Origin: a virus
Direction: 5' to 3' (one strand)
DNA length: 22,618 nt
Virus record (IMG/VR): IMGVR_UViG_3300023174_000673
Coordinates: 1 to 22,618 of that record
Numbering within the stretch: the first letter of the stretch is position 1; each line of letters begins with the position of its first letter. The notes under the pieces are model-generated. The model was not told the origin of the DNA and did no database searches. It saw only the letters and a list, made by a program, of their open reading frames with translations. Positions 1-5,832 of the stretch are shown piece by piece. Both the position numbers and the translations under genes were made by a program.

Positions 1-282
1 GAAGAAATGCAGAAAAGACTTTTTAAAGAAATGATGTATGTCCCTTTCTATGATAAAGAACAAAGAAAGGGACATTTGAATTTAATGAAAGAATTTCTAG
101 AAAAACAAAAAGTTTTTATTTTTAGGCTTTCATTTTCTGATGACCCAGAAGCAGTAGAGATGAAAGAGCGTATGCTTGATTCTGCTGAACTTCTTGGATT
201 TGATAAAAGTCAAGGATTTGATGCTTTTTTCGAAATGCTCGAAGGAACTATCAAAGGACTTGAAAAAACACTTGACGATTAA
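1..282 (+). CDS. C-terminal part of a small protein upstream of gp32 (DUF1825-like; gp33 position)
   Basis: The reading frame is open from the first base, so the gene probably starts before the window; the first internal ATG is at 7. The visible part is charged and helical, with a stretch around residues 25-60 (LEKQKV..RLSFSDDPEA.EMKERM) that resembles, from memory, small cyanobacterial and cyanophage proteins of the DUF1825 type. In T4-like phages the late-transcription co-activator gp33 often lies just upstream of gp32, so this could be the cyanophage counterpart of gp33, but I see no similarity to T4 gp33 itself. The gp32 promoter begins inside its last codons (-35 at 272-277). Function is therefore open: the family resemblance is moderate, the gp33 role is inferred from position only. 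Confidence 0.5.
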   Translation, partial: EEMQKRLFKEMMYVPFYDKEQRKGHLNLMKEFLEKQKVFIFRLSFSDDPEAVEMKERMLDSAELLGFDKSQGFDAFFEMLEGTIKGLEKTLDD

Positions 283-300
283 AGGTGTATCTGCTATAAT
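272..300 (+). promoter_or_regulatory. Sigma70-type promoter of gp32
   Basis: TTGACG at 272-277 and TATAAT at 295-300 are separated by exactly 17 bases, and TGC directly before the -10 box makes it an extended -10. Transcription would start near 307, giving an AU-rich leader of about 38 bases before the gp32 ATG at 345. The -35 box lies in the end of the preceding gene. A host-sigma70 promoter fits early or middle expression of a DNA replication protein. The same layout recurs at 22501-22529. Confidence 0.8.
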
Positions 301-344: not shown

Positions 345-625
345 ATGTCTTTTGCTGATTTAAAGAAGCAATCAAAGATGGGTTCCTTGACTGAGAAACT
401 CATTAAACAAGTTGAGAAACTCAACGAAACTGGTTCCAAGGATGATAATCGTTTTTGGAAACCTGCGATGGATAAAGGTGGAACTGGTTCTGCTGTAATC
501 CGTTTTCTTCCTGCTGCTGCTGGTTGCGAACTACCTTGGGCACAGGTTTGGTCTCACGCATTTCAAGGACCTGGTGGTTGGTTGATTGATAACTGCCTAA
601 CTACTAATAAAGGGCAATGTCCCGT
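345..625 (+). CDS. gp32: Single-stranded DNA binding protein gp32, exon 1 (join 345-625, 1809-1956, 3116-3592)
   Basis: T4-like gp32 coats single-stranded DNA during replication, recombination and repair, and recruits other replisome proteins. The three exons join in frame to 301 residues, the same length as T4 gp32 as I recall it. Exon 1 encodes residues 1-94: the basic N-terminal cooperativity segment (MSFADLKKQSK), the start of the OB fold (GSAVIRFLP) and most of the zinc subdomain. Zinc ligands are H71, C84, C92 and C95, spaced H-X12-C-X7-C-X2-C; T4 has a similar H-C-C-C set. Codon 94 (Val) is split: GT at 624-625 plus T at 1809. The Shine-Dalgarno-like CGGAGA at 333-338 selects the ATG at 345, not the one at 341. 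Without splicing, translation would stop at 632 after 95 residues, lacking C95. Confidence 0.93.
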
Positions 626-702
626 CAAATAACACAGGCGGCTTTATAAGGTAACTTATAACGAAAAACTCTGTTAATTGCTGGAAACCCTAAACGAAAA
701 TA

Positions 703-710
703 GATAAATA
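703..710 (+). promoter_or_regulatory. T4-type late promoter inside intron 1
   Basis: GATAAATA matches the T4 late promoter core TATAAATA at seven of eight positions. It lies 23 bases before the endonuclease start at 734. The spacing is nearly identical at the other late-type motifs of this window (21-24 bases at 2073, 6836 and 7587). T4 intron endonucleases are known to be expressed from late promoters inside the intron. Confidence 0.65.
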
Positions 711-733
711 GTTTGTAAACTAAACGAACTATT
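707..733 (+). promoter_or_regulatory. Hairpin covering the translation start of the intron 1 endonuclease
   Basis: AATAGTTTG (707-715) can pair with CGAACTATT (725-733), a 9-bp stem with one G-U pair. The 3' arm ends directly before the GTG start at 734. In a long transcript from the gp32 promoter the start would be occluded. A transcript starting from the late promoter (expected near 716) would lack the 5' arm. Intron 2 has the same layout. Role inferred by analogy with T4 I-TevI. Confidence 0.55.
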
Positions 734-1678
734 GTGGAAAATAAAATTTCATTGATTTCTAAAGATGGTTTTTATTGTGAACTGAATAAAAAATATTATT
801 CAACCTTGCGGGGTATGTTAAATTATCTTCGTACTCATAATATGAGTTCTGAGGATTATTATATAAAATATCTTGGAGATGTTGGTAAATGTTTAAAATG
901 CAATAAAGATACACATTTTATTAGAATTACGGAAGGATATAGAACATATTGTTCTGTGACTTGTTTATGTAAAAGTAAGGAGCACAGATTATCCATAAGT
1001 AAACGATTTGAAGGTCAAGATGAAAAAAGAAAACAGGCAATAGATAAATGTAGAGATACAAAATCTAAATGGTCTGATGAGTTTAAAAATCAATTGACCG
1101 AAAAAAGATTGAATACTTTAATTGGAAAATATGGCGAAAACTATTTCTCCGAAAAGACCAAGAAACAATGGGAACGAAGAAGTGAGGATCAAATTAAAAT
1201 TTTAGTTGATAAATCAAATCAAACTAAAATTAAAAATGGAACATATAGTCCAAATCCTTACAAAAACACATTTAGAGATTTTAAATGTGGTGAGTTTAAT
1301 TTTAGAGTTCAAGGTTATGAAGATATTACTATAGGTCTTTTATCTAAACTTATAGATTTGTCTGAGTTAAAAACTGGTAATAACGTTCCGAGAATATTTC
1401 TTACAGAACATAAAAATTATTATCCAGACATCCTTTATCGTAATCTATTAATAGAAGTAAAAAGTGAATATACTTATTATCATTTTTTGGATGAAAATAA
1501 TGCAAAACACTTATCTTCTATTGCACAAGGTTTCGGTCATATCTTTTTTATAATACATTCAAAGGATGTATTGAAAAATAGAACTTTAAAAAATGAAGAA
1601 ACTTATTTATCTATTTTACGCAAGGCAATCAGCAGCCAAGCCTCATTTGGTGAGGAAGGTTCAACGACCATCCCGTGA
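734..1678 (+). CDS. Homing endonuclease of gp32 intron 1 (zinc motif plus PD-(D/E)XK nuclease)
   Basis: A 314-residue protein inside the ribozyme, with a likely role of cutting intronless gp32 alleles so that repair copies the intron in. The N-terminal part has C53-X2-C56 and C73-X3-C77, a zinc-binding module common in phage homing endonucleases. A lysine-rich linker (about 85-170) probably contacts DNA. The nuclease motif follows: P231-D232, then E241-V242-K243-S244, the PD-X8-E-X-K arrangement of PD-(D/E)XK enzymes. It is a clear paralogue of the intron 2 protein with identical D-to-E spacing. The start is GTG, since no in-frame ATG precedes residue 28; no clear Shine-Dalgarno is visible. 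The last ~17 residues are encoded by intron core helices P4', P6 and P7, so they are probably not a functional domain. No GIY-YIG or LAGLIDADG motif is seen. Confidence 0.82.
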   Translation: MENKISLISKDGFYCELNKKYYSTLRGMLNYLRTHNMSSEDYYIKYLGDVGKCLKCNKDTHFIRITEGYRTYCSVTCLCKSKEHRLSISKRFEGQDEKRKQAIDKCRDTKSKWSDEFKNQLTEKRLNTLIGKYGENYFSEKTKKQWERRSEDQIKILVDKSNQTKIKNGTYSPNPYKNTFRDFKCGEFNFRVQGYEDITIGLLSKLIDLSELKTGNNVPRIFLTEHKNYYPDILYRNLLIEVKSEYTYYHFLDENNAKHLSSIAQGFGHIFFIIHSKDVLKNRTLKNEETYLSILRKAISSQASFGEEGSTTIP

Positions 1679-1808
1679 CTGGGAGTAGGGGAAAGTTCCC
1701 CGAAATGCAGAGACACCCAAGTGGTGTGTGATATGGTCTACTCTTATATGAAAATATAAGCAGGGAAATGTCCCGATTAGTGATTAACGATCACTAATGA
1801 ATATAAGG

Positions 1809-1956
1809 TTGTGAAGCAAATCGTGAACTATGGAATACTGGAAGTAAAGATAATCAGAATATTGTTCGTGATCGTAAGCGTAAACTTTCTTATTACGCAA
1901 ACATTTATGTAGTGAAAGATCCTGCTGCTCCTGAAAATGAAGGACGAGTGTTCCTT
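1809..1956 (+). CDS. gp32: gp32, exon 2
   Basis: The exon starts with the third base of the split Val94 codon and encodes residues 95-143, opening with C95, the fourth zinc ligand. It contains the conserved gp32 block [18 protein letters not shown], part of the DNA-binding OB fold, and [12 protein letters not shown], which in T4 gp32 reads almost the same. The exon ends with a complete Leu codon (CTT, 1954-1956). Read alone the frame would stop at the TAA just inside intron 2 (1957-1959). Confidence 0.92.
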
Positions 1957-2064
1957 TAACTTAAATTAGAGGCATATAGTAGTAATATTATATGAAAACC
2001 GAGTGAATTGCTGGAAACTCTTGTTAGGTAAACTAACTAAAACAGATTCAATGTGAAAGAAAAC

Positions 2065-2101
2065 TTTTCTTTTATAAATAGTTTTATATTATAAAAGAAA
2101 A
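2065..2101 (+). promoter_or_regulatory. Perfect 13-bp hairpin before the intron 2 endonuclease start
   Basis: TTTTCTTTTATAA (2065-2077) is the exact reverse complement of TTATAAAAGAAAA (2089-2101), leaving an 11-base loop. The 3' arm contains the purine-rich AAAAGAAAA that would serve as the weak ribosome site for the ATG at 2105. The late promoter TATAAATA (2073-2080) lies in the 5' arm and loop, so a late transcript starting near 2086 would lack the 5' arm and leave the start open. Confidence 0.7.
2073..2080 (+). promoter_or_regulatory. T4-type late promoter inside intron 2
   Basis: TATAAATA is an exact match to the T4 late promoter core. It lies 24 bases before the endonuclease ATG at 2105, inside the intron, and within the 5' arm of the 2065-2101 inverted repeat. 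Confidence 0.75.
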
Positions 2102-2104
2102 CAT

Positions 2105-3025
2105 ATGACTGAAAAATTGTATTGCGATTTAGATAAAAAATACTATTCTAAAATGGGAATAGTTAGAATAATCAAAAAATTTGGAATAGATCCAAAAGAT
2201 TATTATGATGAACATTTTAAGTCAGATACCGAAGGCATTTGTCTTAATTGTGAAAAATCTACAAAATTTACAAAATTTTCATACTATAAATTTTGTAATT
2301 GCAAATGTTCATCTCAGTATAATAAAAATACTGAAAAATTATGGAAAAATTCTTCAGAGGATCAAAAGAAAACTTATATTAATAAGATGTTAAACTCTAG
2401 ATATTTAAATACTTCTAAAGAAGATATTGAAAAAAAGAGAGTAAATACTTTACTTAAAAATACTGGTTTTGGTTCTTATTCTGAATTTGTATCAAACCAT
2501 AAGAAGGAGTGGTACAAAACATTAACTGAAGATCAGCATAATGAACTATTTGATAGAATAACTAAATCAAGAAATCAATACAAATATCATATGTATACAC
2601 TAAATGGTATACAAGTTAGAACTCAGGGATATGAAAAATATGTTCTTGATATTCTAATTAAGTATTTTGATAATACAAAAATTGAAGTTGATAGTAAAAA
2701 ATCAATAAGATACAAGGATGAAAACGGAAAAATTAGACGTTATTATCCAGATATTATAATTGATAATTTATTATTTGAAGTAAAATCTCTTTATACTTTA
2801 AAACTTCATAAAAATAATGTATTGTTAAAAATGGAAGCATCCAAAAATGCTGGATACATACCATTTTTAGTTGTATGGGAACCTAAAGAATCTGAAATGT
2901 GTGAAAATAGTTTAATAGAGACAATCAGCAGCCAAGACCTATCACATAAGGTAAGGTTCAACGACTATCCGTTTATCGGAGTAGGTTATAAGCAAATGAT
3001 AACCGAAGTGCTCGGAATCCATTAA
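2105..3025 (+). CDS. Homing endonuclease of gp32 intron 2 (zinc motif plus PD-(D/E)XK nuclease)
   Basis: A 306-residue protein, paralogous to the intron 1 endonuclease and with the same domain order. It begins LYCDLDKKYYSK, matching FYCELNKKYYST in the partner. Zinc ligands C46-X2-C49 and C64-X3-C68 follow (C66 is an extra Cys). A basic helical linker leads to the conserved RTQGYE segment and the nuclease motif P215-D216 with E225-V226-K227-S228, same spacing as in the partner. A downstream K..ASKNAGY segment also suits this nuclease type. The ATG at 2105 is chosen because it aligns with the partner N-terminus and follows the late promoter. The last ~33 residues are read from the intron core (P4' through P3'), which explains their odd composition. 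Its expected target is the intronless gp32 junction near VFL-YKF. Cleavage activity is inferred, not visible. Confidence 0.82.
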   Translation: MTEKLYCDLDKKYYSKMGIVRIIKKFGIDPKDYYDEHFKSDTEGICLNCEKSTKFTKFSYYKFCNCKCSSQYNKNTEKLWKNSSEDQKKTYINKMLNSRYLNTSKEDIEKKRVNTLLKNTGFGSYSEFVSNHKKEWYKTLTEDQHNELFDRITKSRNQYKYHMYTLNGIQVRTQGYEKYVLDILIKYFDNTKIEVDSKKSIRYKDENGKIRRYYPDIIIDNLLFEVKSLYTLKLHKNNVLLKMEASKNAGYIPFLVVWEPKESEMCENSLIETISSQDLSHKVRFNDYPFIGVGYKQMITEVLGIH

Positions 3026-3115
3026 AAATGGATTATGATATAGTCTGTTCTACTTTGAGAGGAGTAGCCGAATAAGATTCGGGATTGGTATTTGCGAACC
3101 AATCCGAACATAAAG

Positions 3116-3592
3116 TATAAGTTTGGTAAGAAAGTTTTTGATAAGATTATGGCTGCGATGCAACCAGAGTTTGATGATGAAAAACCCATTAATGCTTTTG
3201 ATTTCTGGGAAGGTGCAAACTTCAAGTTGAAGCTTCGTAAGGTAGAAGGATACTGGAACTATGATAAGTCAGAGTTTTCTGAACCTGGTCCTCTCTTGAA
3301 TGATGATGATGCTCTTGAGGAAATCTATAAGTCCATTCACGATTTGAATGAATTTACAGATGAAAAGAACTTTAAATCTTATGAAGATTTGAAGAAGCGT
3401 TTGGGATATGTTCTTGGAAATAAGAGTGCGTCTAAGCGTCAAGATCAAGAAACACTTGATGAGGAAGAAGAGTTTGTGCCAACAACAAAGAGTGAATCTA
3501 CATTCACTTCGTCCTCAAAATCTAGTTCTTCTGTTGACGAAGATGAAGACGATGATACTCTTTCTTATTTTCAAAAGTTAGCTGAAAGTTGA
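3116..3592 (+). CDS. gp32: gp32, exon 3
   Basis: Encodes residues 144-301 in frame after exon 2, opening with YKFGKKVFDKIMAAMQPEF, the conserved end of the DNA-binding core, followed by INAFDFWEGANFKLK. The C-terminal ~45 residues are a Ser-rich linker plus a strongly acidic tail (VDEDEDDDTLSYFQKLAES), the domain by which gp32 contacts replication partners and controls its own DNA binding. A TTG upstream at 3092 is in frame but lies in intron sequence, so it is not the start. The gene ends 30 bases before a terminator hairpin. Confidence 0.93.
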   Translation, partial: YKFGKKVFDKIMAAMQPEFDDEKPINAFDFWEGANFKLKLRKVEGYWNYDKSEFSEPGPLLNDDDALEEIYKSIHDLNEFTDEKNFKSYEDLKKRLGYVLGNKSASKRQDQETLDEEEEFVPTTKSESTFTSSSKSSSSVDEDEDDDTLSYFQKLAES

Positions 3593-3621
3593 TTTTCAAA
3601 ATCGACTTTTGATTACCTTTT

Positions 3622-3651
3622 CCCCCGAGAAAAATTTCGGGGGATTTTTTT
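3622..3651 (+). terminator. Rho-independent terminator of gp32
   Basis: CCCCCGA (3622-3628) pairs with TCGGGGG (3637-3643) in a seven-pair GC-rich stem with an 8-base loop, followed by A and a run of seven T. The T-run is only on the plus-strand side, so it ends the gp32 transcript and is not an obvious terminator for the converging minus-strand operon. Confidence 0.88.
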
Positions 3652-4326: not shown

Positions 4327-5832
4327 TCAATAACCTACATCGTCGTTTTGTACTTGATCCAAATCACCAAGATCTCCAGATCTTGTACTAAAGATAGATG
4401 TCTGATAGTCAGTGTTATAAATTGGTTCAAGTTCTGCAAATTGCATCGTAATAGTTACAGATACTGGTTGCCCTTCGTCATAAGCAGCCCAAGTTCCTTC
4501 TGGTGCATAATTTACACTAAAATTAGTCAATGCACAGACTTTGAATTTATTCAATCCAGAAATGGGATTATTTTTTCCAGTTTTATATCTTAATTTAAAA
4601 ACATTTGGAGTTCCAAGAAAAAATGAACTTTGTCCTGCTTGTCCAGTTTGTTTTCTTGGGGACATACCTTGCTTGAAAAAACGAATAATTCTTTTTACAT
4701 TTCTTGCTTCTTTTGTACTTCTTGGACTCAAACGATAAGCAAATGTAAATTGACGAAGTTCTGGACTATTAAATAAAAGTTCCAAGTTTGAGTTTGGAAC
4801 AATTCCAAAACCTCTTGCTAAAATACTTTCCGGTGATACTTCAAATTGTGCCATTTTAAGTATTTGTGAAGAAAAAGCAGCGGAAAAAGCTCCTAGAGAT
4901 TTTGGAGAACCAACTGCAGCACCAACGACATCCTTATATATTGATAATGCTGCTCCTCCTTTTGCTGCTTGTAATATACCTAAAGGACTTTGCCCTTTTG
5001 TTAATAATTGGCCAAATCCTGCAATACCTCCTGCAACACCTCCAGCACCTAAATGTTCTGACATTTTATTTAATGCAGTTCCAGTTGCACCTGCTGTCAT
5101 TGCATTCATTTGATCAGAACCCCAAGAAACATTATTGCTGTCTGATATTCCATTTGGAATTGGAAGAATAGCTAATCCAATCAGTTCAGATAGTGCAGTA
5201 TTTCTTTGTATGTTATTTTGAATTACACTTGTTGGATTTGTAAAAATACTTTCTGCTCCTGTTGGTTGGTATCTATATTGTGATATTTCTAGTCTATCTT
5301 GTTCTGATGTAATCATATCAATTGGATATGTAAGTAATTTTGTGTCATTGAATAGTGCTTTTTCATTTGTATTTGCAAAAGCACTACCAGAAACATTAAA
5401 AGGAGTTAGTGACGGAATAGGATTCGTAATAGCTCCAAAAATAGCACCAACTTGTTGTATAATTCCTTGTGGTCCAGTTGGTGATGTTCCTCCTCCAATT
5501 TGTGTATCTTGAGATCCGGCTTTATTTTTTATAAATCCAGGAAGAACACCAGTTCCTGATGTTCCTCTTGCTTTTGTGATACTATTGGTTACATTTTCGT
5601 GAACTGTTATTCTTTCTTTTGGATCTGATATTACACCAAGGCCATTATTATTCCATACGCCATTTTCATATATTGCTACTTTTGCTGTTTGGACGCCACC
5701 AACAGTGACTATCTCATAAAGCTTTGTATTTCCATTATCTGGATCATAAGTAAGCTGAATTTTTCTTTCCCCTACTTGTAGTGGTTGTGGGGATAGTTTG
5801 TAGAAATCGTTATTTACTGGTTTTTCAGCCAT
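4327..5832 (-). CDS. gp48: Baseplate tail tube cap protein gp48
   Basis: A 501-residue protein, longer than T4 gp48 (about 364). gp48 sits on top of the hub and starts tail tube growth. The C-terminal ~170 residues carry the tube-like domain: SNLELLFNSPELRQFTFAYR, SPRSTKEARNVKRIIRFFKQ, FLGTPNVFKLRY and NFSVNYAPEGTWAAYDEGQP, then VSVTITMQFAELEPIY. This pattern is typical of T4-like gp48/gp54 and tube relatives. The middle part (about 110-330) is Gly/Ala-rich with weakly hydrophobic stretches. The ATG at 5832 directly abuts the stop of the upstream gene and the stop lies just before the gp53 ATG, so the genes are co-translated. Assignment to gp48 instead of gp54 is based on neighbourhood and length. 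Confidence 0.78.
   Translation of the reverse strand: MAEKPVNNDFYKLSPQPLQVGERKIQLTYDPDNGNTKLYEIVTVGGVQTAKVAIYENGVWNNNGLGVISDPKERITVHENVTNSITKARGTSGTGVLPGFIKNKAGSQDTQIGGGTSPTGPQGIIQQVGAIFGAITNPIPSLTPFNVSGSAFANTNEKALFNDTKLLTYPIDMITSEQDRLEISQYRYQPTGAESIFTNPTSVIQNNIQRNTALSELIGLAILPIPNGISDSNNVSWGSDQMNAMTAGATGTALNKMSEHLGAGGVAGGIAGFGQLLTKGQSPLGILQAAKGGAALSIYKDVVGAAVGSPKSLGAFSAAFSSQILKMAQFEVSPESILARGFGIVPNSNLELLFNSPELRQFTFAYRLSPRSTKEARNVKRIIRFFKQGMSPRKQTGQAGQSSFFLGTPNVFKLRYKTGKNNPISGLNKFKVCALTNFSVNYAPEGTWAAYDEGQPVSVTITMQFAELEPIYNTDYQTSIFSTRSGDLGDLDQVQNDDVGY

Follow-up and report, generated by a model that had tools for sequence, protein, structure and literature searches.

The 22,618-nucleotide stretch of DNA analysed here (the window) comes from the genome of a marine or aquatic T4-like phage. 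It holds two introns with nuclease genes in gene 32, and it raises the question of whether a late-promoter motif placed inside a hairpin, directly upstream of such a nuclease gene, could serve as a switch that keeps the gene closed in early RNA and opens it late in infection.

Gene 32, its two introns and the predicted nucleases

In the window, gene 32, which codes for the single-stranded DNA-binding protein, is split in three exons, and joining them gives one full reading frame (Table 1). In both intervening segments U precedes the 5ʹ site and G stands at the 3ʹ end, and each contains four core motifs, which we take to be the P, Q, R and S motifs of group I introns. On these sequence features both segments are group I introns, putatively self-splicing. 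A search of the window against Rfam, at gathering as well as relaxed thresholds, returned no intron match, probably because the ORF interrupts the intron core. The Rfam model RF00028 also gave no match for L014, a relative of intron 1, or for the ORF-holding td intron of T4, and it did match relatives in which most of the ORF is lost: L061 with 54.0 bits and L010 with 48.4 bits, the latter slightly below the gathering score of 50. The promoter upstream of gene 32 is the likely source of early read-through RNA, and since this sigma-70-type promoter precedes the gene and a terminator-like hairpin follows it, early RNA across both introns is expected. Altogether 822 phage records matched the window; the 40 listed cover 10–15%, in gene 32 where annotated.

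Table 1. Features of the gene 32 region, in window coordinates.
Feature	Position	Strand	Basis or remark
Sigma-70-type promoter of gene 32	272–300	+	TTGACG-17-TATAAT with TG before it; 11/12 consensus positions, consensus match only
Gene 32 exon 1	345–625	+	PF08804; joined exons in frame; 3ʹ end is ..TGTCCCGT
Group I intron 1 (putative), 1183 nt	626–1808	+	U-before/G-at-end rule, gp32 frame, core motifs at 676, 1627, 1659, 1730
Late-promoter motif of intron 1, GATAAATA	703–710	+	Sequence motif
Intron 1 hairpin, 5ʹ arm	707–716	+	Inverted repeat, one G-T wobble
Intron 1 hairpin, 3ʹ arm	724–733	+	Abuts GTG at 734
Intron 1 ORF, DUF7487 nuclease (predicted), 314 aa, GTG start	734–1678	+	Pfam
Gene 32 exon 2	1809–1956	+	Joined-exon frame
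Group I intron 2 (putative), 1159 nt	1957–3115	+	Core motifs at 2006, 2923, 2956, 3037; RF00028 matches in ORF-poor relatives
Exon 2/exon 3 junction-like stretch, candidate operator overlapping the promoter	2054–2077	+	18/24 identity
Intron 2 hairpin, 5ʹ arm, TTTTCTTTTATAA	2065–2077	+	Inverted repeat
T4-type late promoter motif, TATAAATA	2073–2080	+	Sequence motif
Expected late transcript start	2086	+	Inferred from T4 spacing
Intron 2 hairpin, 3ʹ arm, TTATAAAAGAAAA, with purine-rich leader	2089–2101	+	Inverted repeat
Intron 2 ORF, DUF7487/PD-(D/E)XK nuclease (predicted), 306 aa	2105–3025	+	Pfam, signature, model
Gene 32 exon 3	3116–3592	+	Family match, joined-exon frame
Terminator-like hairpin downstream of gene 32	3621–3644	+	Sequence

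For either intron ORF, DUF7487 was the only Pfam family above the cut-off (E-values of 6.9e-10 for the intron 1 ORF and 6.7e-17 for the intron 2 ORF), and no GIY-YIG domain was found. The 3ʹ end of the intron 2 ORF overlaps the core motifs at 2923 and 2956, so that early translation would run into the ribozyme. In all 22 aligned relatives the residues Q174, G175, Y176 and E177, D216, and E225, V226, K227 and S228 are invariant, which we read as a PD...EVKS signature with an upstream QGYE. The structure model built from these 22 sequences (pLDDT 81.4) resembled 1cw0 Vsr (Z 8.8, 3.0 Å over 109), 1t0f TnsA (Z 7.9, 2.6 Å over 102) and 3r3p I-Bth0305I (Z 7.5, 3.2 Å over 93), the matches spanning roughly residues 160–305. 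Since Z values near 8 are about the limit for models without clear relatives, the sequence signature weighs equally. Compared with viral models, the 22-sequence model gave 48 matches at E 0.001, including nucleases and one DUF7487 protein. It replaced a poorer model made from six sequences, which had a pLDDT of 64.8 and for which the PDB held no match at E 0.001. Sequence searches against PHROGs, NCBIfam and the PDB gave nothing credible, tblastn of both window ORFs against named phages gave no match, the same search with the L041 and L111 proteins gave partial relatives only, and a scan with the L041 protein found only L041 itself. On the signature and the model, the DUF7487 ORFs are predicted PD-(D/E)XK-like nucleases. 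The modelled fold is similar to that of Vsr, TnsA and I-Bth0305I, but the signature is PD...EVKS with QGYE rather than EDxHD, the motif of I-Bth0305I.

A late-promoter motif in a hairpin before the nuclease start

In intron 2 the arms TTTTCTTTTATAA and TTATAAAAGAAAA are perfectly complementary over 13 bp, with 12 A-T pairs and one G-C pair, and enclose an 11-nt loop. The motif TATAAATA has its first five bases inside the 5ʹ arm and its last three inside the loop, and the ATG of the ORF is located three bases past the 3ʹ arm. The stem, the position of the motif and the start had been described in an earlier sequence-only reading of this DNA, and all of them were recovered where it had placed them. 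The purine-rich region which it had put in the 3ʹ arm is indeed located there, but makes a weak ribosome site: a consensus Shine-Dalgarno sequence about 8 nt before the AUG is absent in the window, where AAAAGAAAAC is found and no GGAG. The leader contains GGAG in L178 and L179 and GGA in L002. In the passages of PMC2984593 available to us, NATAAATA is given as the late promoter reported for cyanophages.

This repeat is the sole perfect one of at least 13 bp with a loop of 3–20 in the 22,618-base window; a repeat of such size arose in 2 of 40 dinucleotide shuffles of the whole window and in 3 of 1000 of intron 2. The motif TATAAATA taken alone occurs at chance (4 found, 3.66 expected in the window). 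Upstream of gene starts, within 45 nt, ATAAATA was found for 5 of 20 starts, as chosen by the analyst, against 0.24 expected; when the two introns were excluded, three remained against 0.21 expected. The RNA of positions 2055–2125 was predicted to fold with −9.1 kcal/mol, which 16 of 200 shuffles equalled (z −1.65), and for the tighter stretch 2062–2113 the count was 7 of 500. Around the ORF start, the predicted unpaired fraction rose from 0.12 in the long RNA to 0.92 in an RNA beginning at 2086. The earlier reading's suggestion of a late promoter nested in a start-masking hairpin is supported: it agrees with the sequence and its predicted folding, with the sigma-70-type promoter in front of gene 32 and with the relatives described below.

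The same reading had attributed one layout to both window introns, with different arm sequences, and the motif, the hairpin and the start were all found in intron 1 (Table 1), where none of 500 shuffles folded as well. In L014 (about 2400–2700) the ORF is internally deleted, with promoter and hairpin retained. We also noticed that the 3ʹ end of intron 1 (window positions 1756–1803) resembles the exon 1/exon 2 junction, with 2 of 300 shuffles as good and the exon boundary one base off.

Relatives of the intron 2 ORF were found at twelve loci. In ten of them, namely L001, which is identical to the window, and nine others, the motif TATAAATA was unchanged. Seven distinct sequences of this family had 97.7% of 88 stem cells paired, and sliding the partner columns by 1–3 lowered the pairing to 51–68%. 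One stem pair varies on both sides (G-C in four, U-A in two, G-U in one); the covariation score was reached by 34 of 500 shuffles, and covariation within this family alone is modest evidence for the stem. The hairpin loop is shortened in some relatives, and close relatives with an intact ORF start retain both motif and stem. The remaining two loci, L010 and L011, have a single deletion, at about 2500, that removed the promoter together with the 3ʹ arm and the beginning of the ORF, roughly two thirds of it, and left the intron core in place. For L005, RNA from the late start was predicted to remain structured, the unpaired fraction going from 0.27 to 0.24.

Recurrence of the layout in distant gene 32 introns

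A wider sample was obtained by a profile search with the nuclease, which gave 60 loci; 42 were examined, the other 18 being 12 rows from contigs already included and six partial matches. A search with the core motifs gave at least 80 loci, with 86 motif sites among those listed: 49 had no ORF found, 28 were without a 5ʹ motif and nine had an ORF, two of them in the window. Since so few ORFs lie between the core halves in this sample, the wider comparison rests mainly on the nuclease relatives. Loci were counted as introns by their core motifs, some by eye (L210, with two such motifs, was not counted), and gene 32 was identified next to the distant introns by reading the translated flanks by eye. 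The comparison took in 17 distinct introns, each of them in gene 32. Thirteen share the insertion site of intron 1, which follows CCCGT, and W2, L041, L166 and L111 are inserted at a second site (W1 and W2 being the window introns). By eye, window positions 1957–3115, L041, L166 and L111, with their related nucleases, show three insertion positions within 11 bases of one gene 32 segment.

A late motif was present upstream of the start in 16 of the 17 introns, as ATAAATA or, in L185, CTAAATA; the count of 16 does not include L176, which repeats L175, or L005 and L006, both members of the intron 2 family. L041 had been found with a pattern containing TATAAATA, which pre-selected the motif and not the hairpin; the other introns were found otherwise. 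The remaining intron, L111 (the same as L174), has an intact ORF and no late motif between the core and the ATG. On its reverse strand, at 4360–4460, TTATAAATA is found near the intron 5ʹ end instead, and by eye an ATAGCG near this end is complementary to the CGCTAT right before the ATG.

Twelve of the 16 motif-bearing introns folded better than 94% of their shuffles (W1, W2, L041, L108, L061, L177, L178, L179, L180, L184, L185 and L219). Four did no better than shuffles in this test, namely L166 (253/500 as good), L175 (95/500), L183 (295/500) and L203 (185/500), although L183 has a 9-bp stem in the common register. As controls we used nine other ORFs preceded by the motif, three from the window and six from related contigs, and none passed; in three of the six the motif lies only 7–10 nt from the start, with little to fold. 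Free-standing relatives of the nuclease passed in 3 of 12 cases, and the layout is therefore not restricted to introns. In two such relatives, L199 and L201, the 35 nt preceding the ORF include an ATAAATA within a strong leader hairpin. The gain in unpaired fraction at the start, from long to late RNA, was predicted to be large for W2 and small for W1, L041, L108, L179 and L219; with the same script it was also small for T4 td (0.42 to 0.49). Two of these introns, both at the first site, have damaged ORFs. L061 (6480–6640) contains ORF remnants, yet TATAAATA and a 9-bp hairpin over the ATG of a short frame are retained, and in L108 (6294–7373) the nuclease is split over two frames, with promoter motif and hairpin present.

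The arms of the distant introns differ in sequence, and they follow the ORF start and the motif. When cognate arms were compared with permuted ones over the 16 introns summed (L111 was outside this test, as it has no motif), 2 of 20,000 permutations were as good by stem score and 36 of 20,000 by duplex energy. Taken singly, only W1, W2 and L184 ranked their own 3ʹ region first of 16, and in L108, L166, L175 and L203 it fell in the lower half of the ranking. Six introns could be aligned in one register, in which 49 of 54 cells are paired and six pairs out of nine carry compensatory changes; this was equalled by 4 of 720 permutations, with relatedness among the introns uncorrected. These six were chosen out of ten compared in this register, and each of the remaining four has between 4 and 7 of the 9 positions paired. 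The view that homologous introns share the inverted repeat is borne out by 12 of 16 that fold, by the pairing of the arms and by the compensatory changes; against it stand four introns that do not pass the folding test, and L111, which is without the layout. The compensatory arm changes across introns add comparative evidence that the hairpin itself may be under selection.

Proposed control of the nuclease, alternatives and known systems

We consider it highly likely, from sequence and from analogy with T4, that the hairpin masks the start early and that the late promoter inside it frees the start, so that the nuclease is made late. By comparison with T4, gene 32 would be transcribed early from its sigma-70-type promoter. 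The read-through RNA would hold the full hairpin 2065–2101, with the 3ʹ arm serving as the leader before the ATG at 2105, and ribosomes would not load; as in T4, this would keep the nuclease off in early RNA. Ribosomes would also be kept off the 3ʹ intron core overlapped by the ORF, so that the intron could splice, a benefit that we infer from T4. Later, the phage late sigma factor would initiate at TATAAATA (2073–2080), and the resulting RNA, beginning at about 2086, would be without the 5ʹ arm; its leader would be single-stranded and the nuclease would be made late, with start and timing as expected from T4. What is directly seen of this switch are its elements in the sequence, the return of these elements in further gene 32 introns and the covariation of the arms.

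The stretch of intron 2 that overlaps the promoter may have a further property, as it resembles the exon 2/exon 3 junction. In the window this likeness was reached by 18 of 500 shuffles, by none of 700 flank windows and by none of 120 windows taken elsewhere in the intron. Relatives have it in nearly the same register (22/26 in L005, 20/26 in L003 and L004), and flank windows did as well in L003 (1 of 305) and in L004 and L009 (3 of 304 each). L002 and L012 were outside the test, as their contigs end before exon 3, and the members of the family share ancestry and count as one case. No junction-like copy near the promoter was seen in the 15 other introns; since the ungapped test also misses the known operator of T4 td (111 of 500 shuffles as good), this absence is weak evidence. 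When the whole intron was searched with gaps for a homing-site copy, with the exon 1 boundary misplaced by one base, the promoter region did not stand out, and the gapped regional test was weak for both W1 (136/1000) and W2 (64/1000), so that the homing-site likeness comes from the ungapped regional test and from the intron 2 family alone. I-TevI binds a copy of its homing site over its own late promoter and thereby represses itself, the operator agreeing at 15 of 20 positions, according to the available part of PMC2988022.

Such likeness, 18/24 in the window and up to 22/26 in close relatives, together with the I-TevI operator (15/20 to the homing site; PMC2988022, in the part available), would be expected if the 5ʹ arm were constrained mainly as DNA, as a homing-site copy, and the hairpin were a by-product; a relic of endonuclease invasion would give the same likeness as an autorepression operator. 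This explanation leaves the complementary 3ʹ arm and its compensatory change unaccounted for. Moreover, the 15 other introns have no junction likeness, by a test that also misses the T4 td operator, some flank windows of relatives are equal and the gapped versions are weaker, and we regard this explanation as very unlikely. The hairpin could also belong to the group I ribozyme as one of its peripheral structures, with an incidental promoter motif, since it lies in the ORF-carrying loop shortly past the 5ʹ core motif and close relatives have conserved it. However, L010 and L011, which may still splice, retain the intron core without it, and the arms of other introns differ in sequence and track the ORF start and the motif, which makes this role very unlikely. 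Finally, a stem of 12 A-T pairs and one G-C pair, a motif at chance frequency and the z of −1.65 for the 71-nt fold are what could be met in AT-rich DNA by chance; the shuffle, swap, slide and covariation tests all speak against it, and we hold chance to be extremely unlikely.

The start-masking switch preferred here is an arrangement already known from I-TevI, I-TevII and I-TevIII of T4; judged from sequence, what is new is the other host gene and the other nuclease fold. As far as the accessible text of PMC2988022 goes, T4 td/I-TevI (and also I-TevII and I-TevIII) share with the window an ORF in a group I intron, a late motif at the 5ʹ arm, a start hairpin in the read-through RNA only (predicted for the window), an ORF whose 3ʹ end lies in the core and a promoter region with likeness to the homing site (in the window, a candidate operator). 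When T4 td was folded by the script used here, 1 of 500 shuffles equalled it. Removal of the I-TevI hairpin, whose ORF ends in the intron core, harmed or reduced splicing (PMC2988022, PMC3014915, both in part). The host gene is gene 32 here and td, nrdB or nrdD in T4, and the nuclease is PD-(D/E)XK-like DUF7487 here, whereas the T4 I-Tev enzymes are GIY-YIG or HNH. Unlike I-TevI, the window has no strong Shine-Dalgarno sequence, and its arms are placed differently relative to the motif. The start is masked too in the leaders of T4 gene e and soc, in Aeh1 mobE and in T4 segB, and in the case of gene e and the endonucleases, late transcription starts internally and omits the 5ʹ strand, as proposed here, according to the available parts of PMC3014915 and PMC2988022; gene e, soc, mobE and segB lie outside introns, unlike the ORFs of the window.

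The T-even introns are those of td, nrdB and nrdD (PMC2988022, in part), and for T4-related phages a 2010 review (PMC2993671, in part) names intron endonucleases of the T-even introns and, besides these, of gene 43 introns. Among the literature matches listed, which covered open-licence papers, no published description of a gene 32 intron family was seen, and DUF7487 had no match in the open-licence literature.

It is possible, though we put it forward only tentatively, that in gene 32 of marine T4-like phages a PD-(D/E)XK homing endonuclease with no relation to I-TevI has come under the same control in three layers, made of a late promoter, a start-masking hairpin and an operator that mimics the enzyme's homing site and overlaps the other two. 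If true, one stretch of DNA would act simultaneously as promoter, as RNA arm and as autorepressor site. Our analysis would extend the switch known for T4 endonucleases and Aeh1 mobE, as described in the parts of the literature available, to gene 32 introns of aquatic T4-like phages. DUF7487 gains a likely role, a gene 32 intron family is indicated, and the nuclease gene is, by analogy with T4, probably expressed only late in infection.
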